Source of the DNA: Cliona cf. orientalis
Taxonomy: Eukaryota; Porifera; Demospongiae; Clionaida; Clionaidae
Assembly (NCBI GenBank): GCA_963930775.1
Contig: OZ005698.1
Location: 4,284,501 to 4,348,500 of the forward strand
Direction of reading: 5' to 3'
Length of the DNA stretch: 64,000 bases
Below the pieces are notes generated by a model, which saw only the letters and a program-made list of their open reading frames with translations, was not told the DNA's origin and did no database searches. The translations under genes and the position numbers were made by a program. Below, one piece after another: positions 32,585 to 61,249 of this stretch (position 1 is its first letter; each line of letters begins with the position of its first letter).

Positions 32585-34048
32585 ATGATGTCTTGTGAGC
32601 CAAAGAGAACATCAGCTTATTCAAATGGCCTTAGAATGCGTATAATGTACATGGTGGAAATGCAACATAAACCTTATCGTGAGGTGGCTGAAAATCTAGC
32701 AGTTGATCCATCTACTGTGTATAAAACAGTCAATCTTTTCAGTGATTGAGTCTGAGAACGTTAACAAAAGGAATTACCCACCAAATAAAGGCACTGTTGT
32801 ATTAACAAACAAATAAGCTGATTATTATTGAGACCGTGTTAGAACAGCCAGAGGTATACATGCATGAGATCAGGGACACACTCATTAGTGAGACAGGCAC
32901 AGAAGTAGACATCAGTAACATCTGGAAATTTCTACGAACCTCAAATATCACCAGACAAAAAATGGTCCTGGTTGCAAAATAAAGGAGTGATTATCTTAGG
33001 GCTGAGTATACTCAAGACATGCAAATATTCAGTGGCCATCCTGAAATGCTGATACCGTATTTATTAGAATACTAGCCGCGGCTACTATTAATTTCAGCCT
33101 TGCTGGAGTGCGGCTACTAATCAAGGGTGGCTCTTATTCGAGGAAGGCTTTTATTTATTTTGGAGAGATACCTTTGCGCCGAGCGCTTTGTGCCGATCCG
33201 GTGGTATCTTGTTGTGATAGACTAGTTTTTCAGGACTACTTTTTGAATAGTCGAGATATTATGATCGAAAAACAGCAGCAGAACCAAGCCAGGGACGTCT
33301 TCTGTCATGCTTTTGCCTTGAACCGACGATTGTTCATGGCGAGCGAATGTGGCCACACCCACTTAATTGTGTTCACACATGCGTGCGGCTACTATTTCTT
33401 TGGCGAAGCTCCAGGTGCGGCTACTATTCGAGGGCGGCTACTATTCGGGGTGCGGCTTCTATTCGAATAAACACGGTATTTATCGATGAAATGGGAAAGG
33501 ATAGAAGGAATTGTATGAGAAGATTTGGTTACAGTGTGCGTGGTAAGCCTCCTCTAAGAAACTCCTGGTATGGGGTCAGAGTGTCAGCCATAGCAGCTAT
33601 GTCCACCAATGGAATCACTGATTGCCACACTGTATGTTCCTCTGTTAATGGTGACGAATTTATGTACTTTTTGCAGCATATCCTAGTTCCACACCTCCAA
33701 CCATTTGATGGAGTAAATCCTCACGGTGTAGTTGTGATGGATAACGCCTCAATCCATCATGTGGATAGGGCTGTGCAACTTATTGAGGCTACTGGTGAAC
33801 TAGTTCAATTCTTCCCACCTTATAGCCCCGAACTCAATCCAATTGAGGAAGCTTTTTCTATGCTTAAATCAACATTACAAGCCAATGAACAGTTATTGGA
33901 CATTGATTGTGAATCACTTGTACTGTGCGTATTTACAGCAATTACACCAGATGACTGTAGACATTGGATATACACACTGGATATTTTTAATTATCATCAC
34001 TTTATGGATTTTGTACAAGAATTGATGATTTTCATCATCACATCCTAA
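32585..34048 (+). pseudogene. DDE_3 (IS630/Tc1-superfamily) transposase, interrupted copy
   Basis: The start is ATG at 32585 or 32588. An N-terminal HTH (YREVAENLAVDPSTVYKTVNLF) is followed by a spacer and the catalytic core: FIDEMGKDRRN (first Asp), VVVMDNASIHHVD (second Asp) and YSPELNPIEEAF (Glu), again DD34E. A 422-bp TIR element sits between CTGATA and TTTATCGATG of the coding sequence, just before the first catalytic Asp. A stop interrupts the frame after the HTH (LFSD, near 32746). The C-terminal half from 33478 is open for about 190 codons. It is a close relative of the transposase at 373-1344 and shares its neighbour-gene layout. Confidence 0.85.
33055..33476. mobile_element. 422-bp MITE nested in the transposase, with TA duplication
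   Basis: The ends CCGTATTTATTAGAATAC and TATTCGAATAAACACGG are inverted and flanked by TA (33053-33054 and 33477-33478). Removing it joins CTGATA to TTTATCGATG, which restores the expected LIFIDE reading. A second copy of about 390 bp lies at 46982-47371. Its open frame is an incidental read-through of TIR sequence. Confidence 0.9.
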
Positions 34049-37760: not shown

Positions 37761-37848
37761 GCTTTAGATAGTTTATGGATTAAAAATGAGCAAAACAATT
37801 GATTTTGGACACTTTCACCATTCAAACTTTTTTATACATGTACATGTA

Positions 37849-37880
37849 CAGTAGCGGTCAATAAAAAGTTAACGTTTCGT
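37849..37880 (+). repeat. Left terminal inverted repeat of the Tc1-BEN transposon
   Basis: CAGTAGCGGTCAATAAAAAG followed by TTAACGTTTCG. It matches the right end except for one base. The TA target precedes it. Confidence 0.9.
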
Positions 37881-38097
37881 AGTGTCTGAACGATCGTAGC
37901 TCCGTAGCGCGTAATCGTCTTCGCACCGTCTATTGTAAGGGGCGTGGCGCGTATGTACGCTATGCGCATGCACTACCGTTTACGTTACATCCGGTCGTTT
38001 TTACGTTCGCGCTACGGCGCGCGAGCGTACCTAGTACCTACCTACGCTACGTTGCTACAGTGTCACCTGATCGTTCAGTTTAGTTGACGTGTTAAAA

Positions 38098-39240
38098 ATG
38101 GTTTATTCGACTTACAAGAAGCAGCGAATCCTGTACTTGTACTCGCAAGGCTACAGGCCTCCCAAAAACACGAAGATGCTCAACGAGGAGAATCTAAAAT
38201 GCTCAAGAGTTGGAGTATACAAGTTCCTAAAGCTCTACAACGCTACTCGATCGATTAGCAGAAGAGTGGGCTCGGGAAGACCTTCGAAAATAACAGCAGA
38301 AATCAAGCAGCTAGTGGAACAACAAATGAGAACTGACGACGAGACGACGGCGTATCAACTACACCGAATGCTGACAGAGAAAGGATACTCAATTTCGCTC
38401 CGCACTATACTGAGATGTCGAACGGCGCTTGGATGGACGTTTCGCGGCAGCGCGTACTGCCAATTGATTAGAGAAGCCAACAAGCAGAAGCGACTCCAAT
38501 GGGCACAACACCACCTTGGCCAGTCGTTTGAGGATGTCATATGGACTGATGAGAGTACGATCCAGTTGGAGAGCCATCGTAGGTTTGCATGTAGGAAACG
38601 TGGAGAGGCGCCTCGACCTAAGCCAAGGTACATAAATTATATTTTTACGATTGATTAATTATTTTTATATAATAAAGCTGCATGTGGCATGTTTGTGAGT
38701 TGAATTCTCAACTCTGTGCTACGCATGCATGTACTACAGATCTTACAATGATTCCTCCGTATCTATGATAGGCCCAAGCACCCCACGAAAGTCCATGTGT
38801 GGGCCGGGATTAGCAAACGAGGACGAACTGGAATCTGTATATTCGAGGGGATCATGAATGCAGTACTCTTTGTTGATATCTTGGACAAGACACTGGTACC
38901 GTTCATCGAGAGGGTGTATCCAGAGGGGCATAAATTTATGCAAGACAATGACCCAAAACATACATCAGTCATGGCAAGAGAGTGGATGGAGGAGAAGTCT
39001 ATCAATTGGTGGAAGACTCCTGCCGAGTCTCCAGATCTTAATCCTATAGAGAACCTATGGCATGAACTCAAAGAATACATCCGACGGGAAGTCAAGCCAA
39101 AGGTGAAGGAAGAACTGATAGATGGAATACAGCAATTTTGGGAAACGGTCGACCAAGCGAAGTGTGAGAAGTACATAGGACATTTGCAAAAAGTGATCCC
39201 AAAGGTGATAGAACTGGAAGGTTCAGCAACAGGATACTAG
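38098..39240 (+). CDS. Tc1-type (DD34E) transposase, two exons
   Basis: The exons are 38098-38627 and 38772-39240, joined across a 144-bp intron (AAG/GTACAT donor, GATAG acceptor) in the middle of an Arg codon. The result is 332 residues, a normal length for Tc1 transposases. The N-terminal half has two HTH-like regions and a basic GRPS hinge (SRRVGSGRPSKIT). The catalytic residues sit in VIWTDESTIQ, FMQDNDPKHTS and SPDLNPIENLW, with 34 residues between the second Asp and the Glu. It binds the element's inverted repeats and catalyses cut-and-paste movement into TA. ATG 38098 is the first in-frame methionine. All catalytic residues are present. Confidence 0.92.
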
Positions 39241-39442
39241 GCACAGTTATTATTTTTATACTATAGTTATTATTACAATCTTTATGACTTAACCGTACTT
39301 GCTATTATTATTATCATGGTATAGAAATTGTAGTCAACAACTTTAATAACCGATATCAACTTTATAATAATAATATTAACAGTAACAAGTAGAAGGGATA
39401 TTGAGTGTAAAAGTAGGCATGAATGTACATGTGTATGCATAG

Positions 39443-42066
39443 CTACATGATAGTAATTTTATTAGAGGAGTTACCACGAAGTCTCTTGCACAGCTGGCCA
39501 ATTGATGTGGTTGCAGTACTCCAAAGGGGCTCAAACTCGTGAGGTGATCGCCAATATGCAGGAAACTGAGCAAAAAGTGTTTGTTTCAGTTGCTGAAGCT
39601 CTACAATTGGAAGCCCAGGGAGATCTCGATCGCCACTTACAGTACACTTAGCCAACACATCCTCGCCAAAATATGCCTCTCTTGCCAGTTTTGCAGCCAA
39701 AGTACCAATACTGCTTGGAGATCGGAGCTTTGGATACCTCACGATAACCTCACTAGCTGACTTGAGTTTTTGTTTGTTTATTACTGACGAAGGTAGGTAA
39801 CTGTTGCCAGGTTTCTCTCGAATGGATGCTATAGCTTTTGTAGCGGTTGAGTTAACCTGATTAGTGATGGGATCAAATGGCACACGAGCTTGAGTTTGTA
39901 CAGGATTCACACCAGACTCCAGATCACCAGCAAGAATAAAGCGCTTAGGTGGGTGAGGTGGGGGGCTGAACGGACTACAGCGTTCAGCTCTCGATTGAGT
40001 TTGATTTTGCGTAGCTCCAAGTTGATACGGATGTGGCTGTGGTTGATTCTGTTGAGGCCGAGGTGGAAGCAGCTGATGTGAATGTGATTGCATTGGATTT
40101 AGTTTGGAGGAATGTAGCTGTGTTGGGTGACGATGAACAGGGGTGCGGCGTTGAGCTCGATACTCTCTTGTAGGTGTCTTGTTTTCTGCATCCAAAGAAA
40201 GGCTTGGAGGTGGGTGCAGTGGAGGTGGCGGAATATACATGGGTGGCTGGTTGAAATACGATTCATCAAAGGATGCATTGTGTGGGGTGTCCACCTGCTG
40301 ATACACCGACTGATTCTCAAGTGCAGTTAGCCTTGATAAAATTTCGTCTTGTTTCTGCAAAACCCGATCAAAGTTAGCCTCCAGGGTAGTAACTCTGTCC
40401 AACAACAGTTGCAGTTCCACCTCTATCGACAGGGAATCCAGAGAGTGTGATGGAGTTGGTTCCTCTGGTGACACGTCACTGTTGTTAAGTGGAGGCATGG
40501 GAGGCATGGGAGGAGGGAGAGGAGATATGTCGCTATCTTCACCTGTTGTGCAAGAAAATTAAAACACTCATGCATGTACACATGAAAAACAAGTATAATG
40601 TAGGTAGTTACCGTCTGTATCGGAAAAGTCAGATAGGATGTTGATGACAGTGCCCGAAATAGATGACCCACTGGGACGTTGAGTGGTTACAGTGTGTGAA
40701 CCACTGGGGGCTGAGGTGGTCGAAGTGGCAGACTGGGAGCAACTAGGAGCTGTCTGGGAGAAGTCGGTGGCCACAGCCGTCACAGTAGCAGATGCTTGGT
40801 AGCAACTAGGAACTGAAGTGGTCGCAGATGAACCACTGGGACGTAGAGTGGTTACAGTGTGTGAACCACTGGGGGCTGAGGTGGTCAAAGTGGCAGACTG
40901 GGAGCAACTAGGAGCTGTCTGGGAGAAGTCGGTGGCCACAGCCGTCACAGTAGCAGATGCTTGGTAGCAACTAGAAACTGAAGTGGTCGCACATGAACCA
41001 CTGGGAGCTACAGCAAATGAAATAACAGCAGTAAATCGCATGTACATGCATGTGTACAGATGTACAGTAGGGCTTTTCTACATACATGTAGGGCCAAGAA
41101 GGCTTTAGGGGTCCTTACATGTACATGTACTGTACATGTATATACATGTACACTGTACTAACCTTGTACATGTTGTATATTGGCCGAGTCAGTCAGGGTA
41201 ACACCAGTGCTAACTGATCCAGTAGCTGTTGATGTTGTTGCACAAGCTGCTGTCTGTGAACCCGAGGGAGTTAAGGAAGTCCCAGTAGTGGTGGAGGAAG
41301 CACTGGGGGGTGGGGGAGTGATAGTTGCCACCTTAGAACCACTGGGAGCTGGAGCGGTAGGATTTGCTGTCTCCGAATCAGTACTGGCAGCCACAACACG
41401 CAGGATCGTTCCACCTGTGGAAAACAAAGTAAGCAATTTGAAATATGTATATGTGTATTAATGTTTATTACAAAAGCACCTTCTCGTTTTTGTTTCTTTC
41501 GTGGAGGCTTCCCGTTGCTGCTTTTCTGCTTGGTGGTTGTCTTGTCCACTTGGCGTTTCCTCTTCTTAACAACTATGATAAAAAATGACAAGCTGAAGAG
41601 TATGTTCAATGCATGTCGTGCACTGCATTCATACATGTATATTACAGCCTGTATATCACACAAATTATTTATAGTAGGGTGTACCTTTTTCCTGGCTGGT
41701 TTCCGACTGTGTTGGTTCGGGCGGAGTCACTGTGGGTTGAGATGATTCTCCTAAAATGGAGTTCAACTTCTGCTGGACTTGTTCTTTGGTTCCTACACCC
41801 TTAAGTTGGCCTACATATATTTTGCCTCTCTCCTTCACTTGAATTGTGTCAGTTGGCTCTCCCACTACCTTAGACTGTGGCACCTCACTATAGCAGTCCT
41901 CTTCAGGCCAGTAGACTAAAAAATGACGCCCTATGGTGAACAAAACAAATATGCTAGTCACTCAATAGGATCATTGTGTACTCTAGGCCAATGATTTAAC
42001 TCAAAACTTACTCCTTTTCTCGTGAAACTCTTTCATTTTGTCTTTTAACTCTTTCCGTAGAGCCAT
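39443..42066 (-). CDS. BEN-domain accessory protein of the Tc1 transposon, six exons
   Basis: The exons on minus are 42066-42012, 41930-41685, 41572-41480, 41414-41163, 41007-40612 and 40542-39443. Every intron is GT-AG, every junction is phase 1, and the total is 2142 nt (713 residues plus stop) with no stop inside. In order, the protein has a short basic start (MALRKELKDKMKEFHEKR), then a compact beta-rich region of about 60 residues (VPQSKVVGEPTDTIQVKERG, then KIYVGQLKGVG) that could be Tudor-like. Next come a nuclear-signal-like KKRKRQ/RKKQKR exon and Ser/Thr/Pro linkers with a 61-residue repeat present twice. A coiled coil follows (about 384-425), then a Gln/Pro/His-rich stretch and a C-terminal BEN domain (about 599-704: YFGEDVLAKCTVSG, then LFAQFPAYW, then LCKRLR). 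BEN domains bind DNA or chromatin. A role in target choice or in shielding the element is inference. Confidence 0.85.
40633..41007 (-). repeat. Internal tandem repeat in BEN-gene exon 5
   Basis: A unit of about 183 bp, encoding ATTSVPSCYQASATVTAVAT and TAPSCSQSATSTTSAPSGSH, occurs twice in direct orientation. The two copies are nearly identical, so the duplication is recent. Similar but less regular Ala/Thr/Pro repeats fill the matching part of the copy at 60225-61232. Confidence 0.85.
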
Positions 42067-42423
42067 ATCACCACTGAGAACTGACGCTGCTTTTCTCTGA
42101 AGACGGTAGTGGTAGAAGGTTGCTCGTTCGATTTTCGGCGGTCAGATTCGTTGCTTGGCTAGTTCGATTTTCGGAGGTCTTGAGTGGATGAATAACTGAT
42201 TACTAGTTCGATCTCCGGAGGTCTCGGATAGAAGTCTTGACTCGATCGTTTCGTTTTTATACACAACGCTTCTCACCTCGTGTCAAACGATTGCCACCTT
42301 TGTACCCAACGTGACCCGCCCAGCCGCGCCCGCGGGCGTACCGTATATACGGCATGCGATTTTTCGTGCTACAGTCGTTTTTTTAGAACGATACGCATCG
42401 TTGCACGATCGTTGCGACGACAA

Positions 42424-42454
42424 CGAAACGTTAACTTTTTTTTGACCGCTACTG
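42424..42454 (-). repeat. Right terminal inverted repeat of the Tc1-BEN transposon
   Basis: CGAAACGTTAACTTTTTTTT then GACCGCTACTG, ending at 42454 and followed by TA. It differs from the left end at one position. Confidence 0.9.
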
Positions 42455-42513
42455 TACATGTATTGTTAGTGGCTACTCTCAAGGGGCATACATGCATATT
42501 CATGCATTAAAGG

Positions 42514-59745: not shown

Positions 59746-59769
59746 AGAATTATTGACTTTTTGGTCAGT

Positions 59770-60071
59770 ATCTCTTACAAGCGTGAACAATTGCATCTGT
59801 ACATTCCTTCCATTGGGACTTGAACTCTTGCAGTGAGTTCCAATACTCAGAGAAAAGCATGAAGATTGTGTGCTTCAAGCGTTGGAGTTCATCTGTCAGA
59901 AGGCCTGGGCAGCTCACGCTCCCCAGATATGGTACACCTAGCCATCACTTCCTCACCAAAGAGTGCATCTTTGGCTAGTGTCACTGCCATTGTTCCAACT
60001 TTGCTGCTACATCGTAATTTGGGATATTTTGCGATGATATTAGCAGAAACCAGTTTCTGCTGGTTTATCAC
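59770..60071 (-). pseudogene. BEN domain of the second transposon copy
   Basis: The frame with INQQKLVSANIIAKYPKLR, then FGEEVMARCTISGE, matches residues 602-650 of the intact protein. A shifted continuation reads FMLFSEYWNS and AIVHACKRY, matching its C-terminal half. At least one frame change lies between them. Confidence 0.75.
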
Positions 60072-61249
60072 TAACGAAGGAAGTGTACTATTGACTGGAC
60101 GCTTCTCAAGTGAATCCTAGCCTGGATAAAATCTCATCTTGTTTCTGTAGTGGTCGCCACTCGATCCATGGAGTTCCATCTCCAGTGTCAGTATGTCAAC
60201 AGACTGACCTGGTGAGTGATGTGATTGAGCTTTGGAGATTCACAATCAGGAGGTGGGAGTGGAGGTACTGTCGATACACTGCTAATTGATTCATCTGATC
60301 CATCACTCGTAGTCACAGTTTTAGGAGCGACAGGGAGCACTGGTTGTAGCCACAGTCATAGGAGCGGCAGAGGTCAGAGTTGGAGCGTCAGGGGTCACGG
60401 TTACAGTCGGAGCGGGAGGGGTCGTATAGGGAGCACTACTTGCAGCAACAATTGTAGGAGCAGCAGGGGTCATAGAGGGAGCACTACTTGTAGCCACAAT
60501 CGTAGGAGCAGTAGGGGTCACAGTCACAGCGGCAGGGGTCGTAGCAGGAGCATTGGTCATAGCCACAGTTACAGAAGCAGCGGGGGTCACAGCCACAATT
60601 GAAAAAGTGGTAGGGATTGTGCGAGCAGTGTTGGTTGTAGCTGCTGTAGCACTACCTTTGGTGTCAGTTGTAGCTTTAGCAGATGGCCTTGTCATATGAT
60701 TGCTCCAAGTGCTAGTAAACAGGTGGTTTTACTTCTTTCTTCTATCTCTTCTTTGGAGGTTTCTCACTGCCATTTTTCTGTCCAGTAGCTACATGTACCT
60801 TTTCTGTGGGTATTTTTTGCTTCTACCAACTGATGAGTAATTGTACATGTAATTTCACACTAGCATGAAGAGTGTCATTGTAACTCTACGAAGACATTAC
60901 GTGTACATGTATGTACACAATGATCCACAGACACTACTAGACTAGGATTCTGATACCTTGTTTCTTGCTTGTCTTCGGATTGGACTCAGCTGGAGCAGCA
61001 GGGATTGTCCAGTCACATTGGTTGTAGCCACAGTCATAGGACCTTCAGGGGTTGTAGAGGGAGCATTGGTTGTAGCCACAGTCGTTGGAAAGGGAGGGAT
61101 CATAGAGGGAGCATAGGTTGTAGCCACAGTTGTAGGAGCTGCAGGAGTCACAGTCGCAATCGGAGCGGCAGAGGTTGTAGCAGTCACTGGTTCTGGATTG
61201 TTTGTCAATGTCATAGATTTTAGTTCTTGCACCTTTTGATGAGGACAGT

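Follow-up and report, generated by a model that had tools for sequence, protein, structure and literature searches.

A two-gene Tc1-type transposon lineage in the sponge Cliona cf. orientalis pairing a DD34E transposase with a BEN-domain gene

The stretch of DNA analysed here, hereafter the window, is a 64,000-nucleotide part of the genome of the sponge Cliona cf. orientalis (C10:4284501-4348500, where C10 is contig OZ005698.1) and holds at positions 37849-42454 a Tc1-type element, BEN-Tc1, which carries a second gene with a C-terminal BEN domain besides its transposase gene. Across the single genome surveyed (216,785,154 bases in 149 contigs), the second gene is under selection and moves together with the transposase. 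On balance we lean towards a two-gene Tc1 lineage, composed of a DD34E transposase and a BEN protein that would act as the element's own sequence-specific DNA-binding partner; judged from sequence, the BEN protein probably helps the element to move or controls it.

The element is 4,606 bp long, is unstranded as a unit and lies between the TA dinucleotides at 37847-37848 and 42455-42456. Its left terminal inverted repeat (TIR; 37849-37898, + strand), with a related core found at 30 distinct ends of the family, and its right TIR (42405-42454, - strand) begin with CAGT, are identical at 31 of the 32 outermost nucleotides and can be aligned over about 50 nucleotides. The transposase gene is read from the + strand in two exons, of which the first (38098-38627) encodes a putative helix-turn-helix (HTH) region and the first catalytic Asp and the second (38772-39240) provides the second Asp, the Glu and the stop codon, separated by a GT..AG intron of 144 nucleotides (38628-38771). 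The predicted protein of 332 amino acids displays the catalytic triad D151/D235/E270, with 34 residues separating the last two (DD34E), and matches the Pfam family DDE_3 (expect value, E, 4.9e-25). A match to HTH_Tnp_Tc3_2 at its N-terminus (E 6.7e-7) falls short of the curated cut-off, with 29.9 bits compared to 31.5, and one solved relative was found for the whole transposase, Sleeping Beauty 5cr4 (2.9e-31). The BEN gene is convergent with the transposase gene, their stop codons facing each other with 202 nucleotides between the genes, and its five exon junctions, each in phase 1, give a frame of 713 amino acids with no stop. An earlier note, made from the letters of this DNA, had described an intact 4.6-kb element with TA flanks and near-perfect TIRs, a complete 332-residue DD34E transposase and a convergent 713-residue gene whose six exons join in phase 1; this observation is confirmed and is correct in every measurable detail.

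Genome-wide searches with both genes placed them side by side at many loci. As 121 of 474 candidates were scored in the search for the lineage transposase, all copy counts given here are lower bounds. The last 168 amino acids of the second gene matched at least 87 stretches, clustered into at least 78 places, and the window transposase matched at least 138 stretches in at least 92 places. A lineage transposase lies within 8 kb of 59 of the 78 second-gene places and is convergent at 57 of them, with a gap of less than 800 bp in 45 of the 57 convergent pairs. The Pfam BEN model gave 51 stretches in the genome, 38 of them over the cut-off, and 33 of the 51 places lie within 8 kb of a lineage transposase, compared to 0.37 expected under uniform placement. 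These 33 pairs display three gene orders: 20 are convergent, nine have BEN downstream on the same strand and four have BEN upstream. Seen from the transposase, BEN was found within 8 kb at 74 of the 92 places, and a closer look added L056, L065 and L064, giving 77 of 92; at L064, BEN was predicted from the sister locus L052 and then found, with a match covering 63 of 94 profile positions. All transposase places spanning at least 900 bp have BEN (55/55), and the 15 places without it are partial matches of 333-867 bp. When sorted by identity to the window transposase, BEN lies within 3 kb at 47 of the 54 places with at least 60% identity and at 22 of the 38 places below. The case named in the earlier note as fatal to its reading, a BEN gene present at one locus only, outside TIRs, as an ordinary host gene, is not what the genome holds, with 57 of 78 second-gene places paired and ten elements bracketed by TIRs, and a single capture of a host gene was rejected on the same pairing. 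The interpretation as an accessory gene is thus supported, while the picture of a single unusual element proved too narrow, the lineage being diverse and including several gene orders.

The genome is rich in Tc1-type transposases (548 DDE_3 candidates), 150 of which were scored as a control set with zero overlap with the lineage transposase places. A BEN place was found within 3 kb of four of these 150 other Tc1 places, compared to 69 of the 92 lineage places, and the idea that any Tc1 in this genome carries BEN was rejected. The BEN places behind the four control cases each have their own lineage transposase; one case sits in an element on C3, in the interval from its left TIR to its transposase, and three are nested or adjacent.

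To place both genes relative to the element ends, 19 elements were checked for both TIRs: the window element, the 11 elements L069-L079, six others and C1:13.1 Mb. Ten of the 19 hold both genes inside both TIRs, namely the window element, C3:9142381-9151929 (with nested insertions), C14:5.2 Mb (L071), C2:13.2 Mb (L072), C9 (L073), C7 (L077), C2:7.4 Mb (L039 and L076), C4:7.9 Mb (L041 and L075), an element on C13, whose TIR differs and whose BEN gene lies downstream, and C1:13.1 Mb, which is likewise arranged. Two orders are therefore proven inside TIRs, convergent and BEN downstream, and the BEN-upstream order is not. Some bracketed elements are decayed, with stops or cut frames in L071, L072 and L064 with L082. 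Both TIRs were not found in the other nine (L069, L074, L078, L079, C4:4.0 Mb, C1:35.2 Mb, C16, C1:36.5 Mb and C4:7.66 Mb); several of these nine were inspected over too short a stretch.

Comparison of near-identical copies located the edges of the mobile unit. Between the copies at C2:7.4 Mb and C4:5.6 Mb, which have different left flanks, identity is 99.93% over 2,942 nucleotides inward from the TA and 99.94% over 3,423 nucleotides of the BEN part, the C4 copy being known without its far end. Similarly, the copies on C9 and at C14:4.97 Mb share 97.7-99.0% identity as far as the TA, where it is lost. As these near-identical copies end at the TA, both genes have moved together, recently in some cases. 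When ends were located by the TIR core, TA preceded all 34 distinct family ends, and the sequence flanking it varies among them except for the identical flanks of L015 and L021. CATGTA was observed at three of the 34 ends compared to about 0.7 expected from window composition, as a measure of target preference beyond TA. At a threshold of at least 15 of 20 positions, the TIR core gave no match in twenty shuffles of a 5-kb copy; at real loci a few matches of 14-15 of 20 occur without the family's TA-flanked end.

These data bear directly on the proposal that BEN is a separate repeat inserting beside Tc1 elements, or a frequent host gene that happens to lie nearby. Such a proposal would account for the BEN places with no lineage transposase within 8 kb (19 of the 78 second-gene places and 18 of the 51 Pfam BEN places). 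Against it, one TIR pair encloses both genes in ten elements, near-identical copies carry both genes and cease to match at the TA, and BEN lies near only four of 150 other Tc1 transposases, each time with a lineage transposase of its own. Separate repeats landing side by side were rejected; for the ten bracketed elements the proposal is refuted, and overall we find it scarcely credible.

Judged from its substitution pattern, the BEN domain is under purifying selection. The ratio of nonsynonymous to synonymous substitution rates (dN/dS) of the BEN domain has a median of 0.29 and a range of 0.10-0.77 over eight pairs with dS of 0.05-1, compared to 0.32 for transposase exon 1 (four pairs, reaching 0.77) and to 0.12 for the second exon (nine pairs). 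The corresponding ratio of proportions (pN/pS) in pairs with pS above 0.4 is 0.39 for BEN (221 pairs) and 0.34 for transposase exon 2 (614 pairs); the pairs in these comparisons are not independent. Distances between BEN domains follow those between the transposases (r = 0.80, p = 1e-4, for 12 non-redundant loci of the 18 with both parts), a correlation that shows joint inheritance and not function. The transposase tree, which included two distant outgroups and whose bootstrap had not settled, sets the lineage apart; it gives moderate support (90/87) to clade B, comprising the BEN-upstream, BEN-downstream and other convergent types, and leaves much of clade A unresolved. Five loci labelled noBENseen in this tree (L050, L059, L056, L065 and L064) do have BEN.

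Transposons are generally known to capture genes, and this precedent, together with the many broken copies such as L069, L071 and L078, speaks for a host gene captured by chance and carried as a functionless passenger. The retention of BEN at 77 of 92 transposase places with the rest partial, the purifying selection on its domain and its persistence across several gene orders all run counter to such a history, which is largely refuted and in our view very improbable.

The assignment of the C-terminal domain, the last 118 amino acids of the accessory protein (39446-39799, - strand), was made through its relatives, on which evidence it is a BEN domain. Thirteen homologous domains, open and non-redundant, were taken from loci matching the last 168 amino acids to form alignment A1, which has 22 invariant columns; nine of these 13 homologues match PF10523, the best with E 1e-6. 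Alignment A2 was built from five of the six BEN domains beside more distant lineage transposases, the more divergent C1:35.2 Mb domain being omitted. The A2 profile of these five clade-B domains matches BEND3 (1.6e-13) and BANP (3e-4), and A1 and A2 match each other with a probability of 96% and E 3.3e-9; A1 alone reached BEND3 with E 0.21 only. Five proteins that were scored, representing four of the six distant domains and one A1 member, are all over the Pfam BEN cut-off. The BEN label of the earlier note is therefore right, and although the window sequence alone leaves it unproven, it is established through the A1 and A2 relatives and PF10523. A single-sequence AlphaFold model of the domain had a predicted local distance difference test (pLDDT) score of 45, too poor to judge the fold, and no relative could be confirmed among viral and prokaryote collections.

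A candidate binding site lies just inside the element ends. In the window element the palindrome ACGATCGT occupies nucleotides 42-49 from the left end (37890-37897) and 43-50 from the right end (42405-42412), where it is a candidate site for the BEN protein or the transposase. Clade A contributed 41 ends, 30 of them distinct; as these ends share descent, they are not 30 independent cases. ACGATCGT begins at nucleotide 41-43 in 16 of the 30, and at least seven of its eight letters are present there in 21, compared to two ends at most reaching seven at any of eight control positions. A palindrome of at least eight nucleotides is centred there in 18 of the 30 ends (shuffle mean 2.4, maximum 9). 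Two ends carry ACAATTGT, in which both sides have changed and the symmetry is preserved. From this pattern ACGATCGT is a candidate BEN binding site.

Tc1 transposases bind their own TIRs through a two-part DNA-binding domain, and the palindrome could accordingly be read as a second transposase site, leaving the BEN protein to act elsewhere, for example in target choice. The distance to the outer end varies by two nucleotides and the site is symmetric, features that another protein, bound as a dimer, would explain no less well. The target sites showed no clear preference beyond TA that could bear on this alternative either way. We hold it to be a somewhat doubtful explanation.

Under the two-gene reading, the BEN protein would reach the nucleus via its basic exon 3 and, as a dimer, would bind the palindrome 41-43 nucleotides inside each end (ACGATCGT in clade A); with the transposase, a complex at the element ends would then be assembled or regulated. 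By analogy, the element most likely works as a two-gene Tc1 in the manner of PIF/Harbinger with its Myb-like helper. A serious rival holds that the BEN protein is no transposition helper and acts on chromatin or transcription, as a transposase repressor, an insulator or an anti-silencing factor. In the window the facing stop codons, 202 nucleotides apart, would permit mutual control, and the Ser/Thr-rich, Pro-rich and coiled-coil-like regions, recognised by eye, would suit protein contacts. The palindrome, however, is found at both element ends and not at one promoter only, and its retention at all 55 near-complete places is more in keeping with BEN being essential than with its being optional. 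A chromatin or transcription role is possible, although we do not favour it.

The autonomy of Tc1/mariner elements is the reason for their use as gene-transfer tools across animals. Several observations weigh against a DNA-binding partner encoded by the element itself, beginning with the description of Tc1/mariner elements as able to transpose on their own in the available part of PMC5704228. Neither the 713-residue protein of the window nor its 118-residue domain has a Pfam BEN match at E<1. Palindromes of at least eight nucleotides also occur elsewhere in the first 330 nucleotides, in 0-9 of 30 ends per 20-nucleotide bin; in clade B a palindrome at the corresponding place was seen in three of seven ends, which is not clear against a shuffle mean of 0.5 and maximum of 4; and the palindrome may instead be a second site for the transposase. 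One BEN pair has a dN/dS of 0.77, and the window copy is in none of the eight pairs. In-step distances of the two proteins are equally expected of a passenger gene. Finally, L069, the nearest copy in sequence, is truncated before BEN exon 3, and its acceptor of exon 4 is broken.

The BEN gene is read from the - strand. Exon 1 (42012-42066) contains the start codon, and both its ends are conserved in L070; exon 2 (41685-41930) encodes a conserved N-terminal domain of about 60 amino acids (FLVYWPEED..); exon 3 (41480-41572) encodes a basic stretch (KKRKR..PRKKQKR) resembling, by eye, a nuclear localisation signal. The products of exon 4 (41163-41414) and exon 5 (40612-41007) are Ser/Thr-rich, and exon 5 contains an in-frame tandem duplication of 165 bp (40661-40990, 98%); the length of this Ser/Thr-rich part differs between BEN copies. 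Exon 6 (39443-40542) provides a coiled-coil-like stretch, recognised by eye, a Pro-rich linker, the BEN domain and the stop codon. The N-terminal domain recurs in other copies; a Pfam search with it gave no match. Its single-sequence AlphaFold model (pLDDT 63) contains strands and helices predicted with low confidence, and a fold search with this model found no match at E<=0.001. The exon model was compared with the diverged copy on C3 (L070), in which the exon 1-3 parts are 72-78% identical in protein to the window gene. L070 agrees with the window at both borders of exons 1 and 2, at the donor of exon 3 and at the acceptors of exons 4 and 6, and its exon 3 acceptor is shifted to another AG a few nucleotides away. 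For the donor of exon 4 and for either border of exon 5 the comparison gives no answer, as L070 has a badly aligning repeat region there, and in that stretch the model depends on the open frame. Three direct repeats, each of about 22 nucleotides (GTTCGATTTTCGG-like) and spaced by 36 and 44 nucleotides, were noted a short way upstream of the BEN start codon at 42122-42223 and are a possible regulatory array.

Other members of the lineage differ from the window element in structure. The transposase of the more distant members L039, L040 and L041 is a single open frame without the intron of the window element, and the intron was therefore gained or lost within the lineage. The relative at C3:9142381-9151929 (L003, L070) measures about 9.5 kb; its left TIR is separated from its own transposase by other DDE_3 transposases (9143086 and 9146556), which gives it the look of an element into which further Tc1 copies have inserted.

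With the Tc1-like DD34E group of Tc1/mariner elements, including Sleeping Beauty (5cr4), BEN-Tc1 shares the TA target, the CAGT TIRs, the DD34E triad, the DDE_3 match and a putative HTH region. Unlike the usual Tc1-like elements, the window element is 4.6 kb long in place of one short gene, carries a second, spliced and conserved BEN gene and has an intron in its transposase gene. As far as the available part of PMC9710019 describes, PIF/Harbinger elements resemble it in combining a transposase gene, a gene for a DNA-binding protein and a subterminal motif. In the same portion of that source, the Myb-like protein of a zebrafish Harbinger recognises a subterminal motif of 9 bp, nuclear entry of the transposase depends on this protein, and in rice as in zebrafish the two Harbinger proteins are both necessary (PMC9710019). 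BEN-Tc1 differs from PIF/Harbinger, whose partner is a Myb-like SANT/MADF protein, in transposase family, target site and DNA-binding domain, and at E<1 neither protein of the window element matches a PIF or Myb family in Pfam. The Tec/TBE elements of ciliates, as presented in the accessible sections of PMC7325037, are also of the Tc1/mariner type with more than one open reading frame (ORF). In Tec the TIRs are about 700 bp long and the second ORF encodes a site-specific recombinase (PMC7325037, same sections), whereas the window element has TIRs of about 50 bp and a BEN ORF; a word search of the available text of that paper found no mention of a BEN protein. BEND3 and BANP of animals contain the same domain but are host genes, in contrast to the transposon gene described here with its distinct N-terminal domain. 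Wasp polydnaviruses have moved BEN domains into moths, and no link to Tc1 is drawn in the portion of PMC4190172 at hand. Within the accessible parts of the literature searched, no report of a Tc1 or other transposon carrying a BEN gene was found, though an earlier description may exist.

A second gene kept through deep divergence and changes of gene order shows that the single-gene design of Tc1 is not universal; in the BEN protein a Sleeping Beauty-like transposase would have a natural partner that binds DNA, and the end palindrome makes the idea testable by one binding experiment. The lineage may also account for multi-copy BEN-domain genes in some animals. DUF4806 is called a BEN subtype in the available excerpt of PMC11075544. 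According to the accessible part of PMC7642931, two Hydra genomes contain 69 and 54 DUF4806 domains and 365 and 481 DDE_3 domains, and five other cnidarians contain 0-6 DUF4806; this joint expansion in Hydra is a lead only. It is a tentative and on present evidence rather unlikely extension that a major Tc1 lineage of animals, reaching well beyond Cliona cf. orientalis, has BEN as its old and obligatory second gene. Were it true, multi-copy BEN and DUF4806 genes of other animals, for example those of Hydra, would for the most part belong to transposons, which would also be the source of some host BEN factors.

BEN domains over the Pfam cut-off with no lineage transposase within 8 kb were also recorded, for example at C1:36769677, C6:3038163, C8:4657396, C1:24266926, C6:4607748 and C11:3108408, and are candidates for host BEN genes or solo remnants. 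The window itself contains a second, decayed BEN fragment of the same family at 59759-60113 (C10:4344259-4344613), which matches in two pieces with 57% and 42% amino acid identity and has an internal stop; it has no lineage transposase within 8 kb, and its DNA is partly 88% identical to the copies at C14:3.79 Mb and C2:9.61 Mb. Positions 33473-33901 of the window encode part of an unrelated DDE_3 transposase (E 4.6e-26) belonging to a different and distant lineage.

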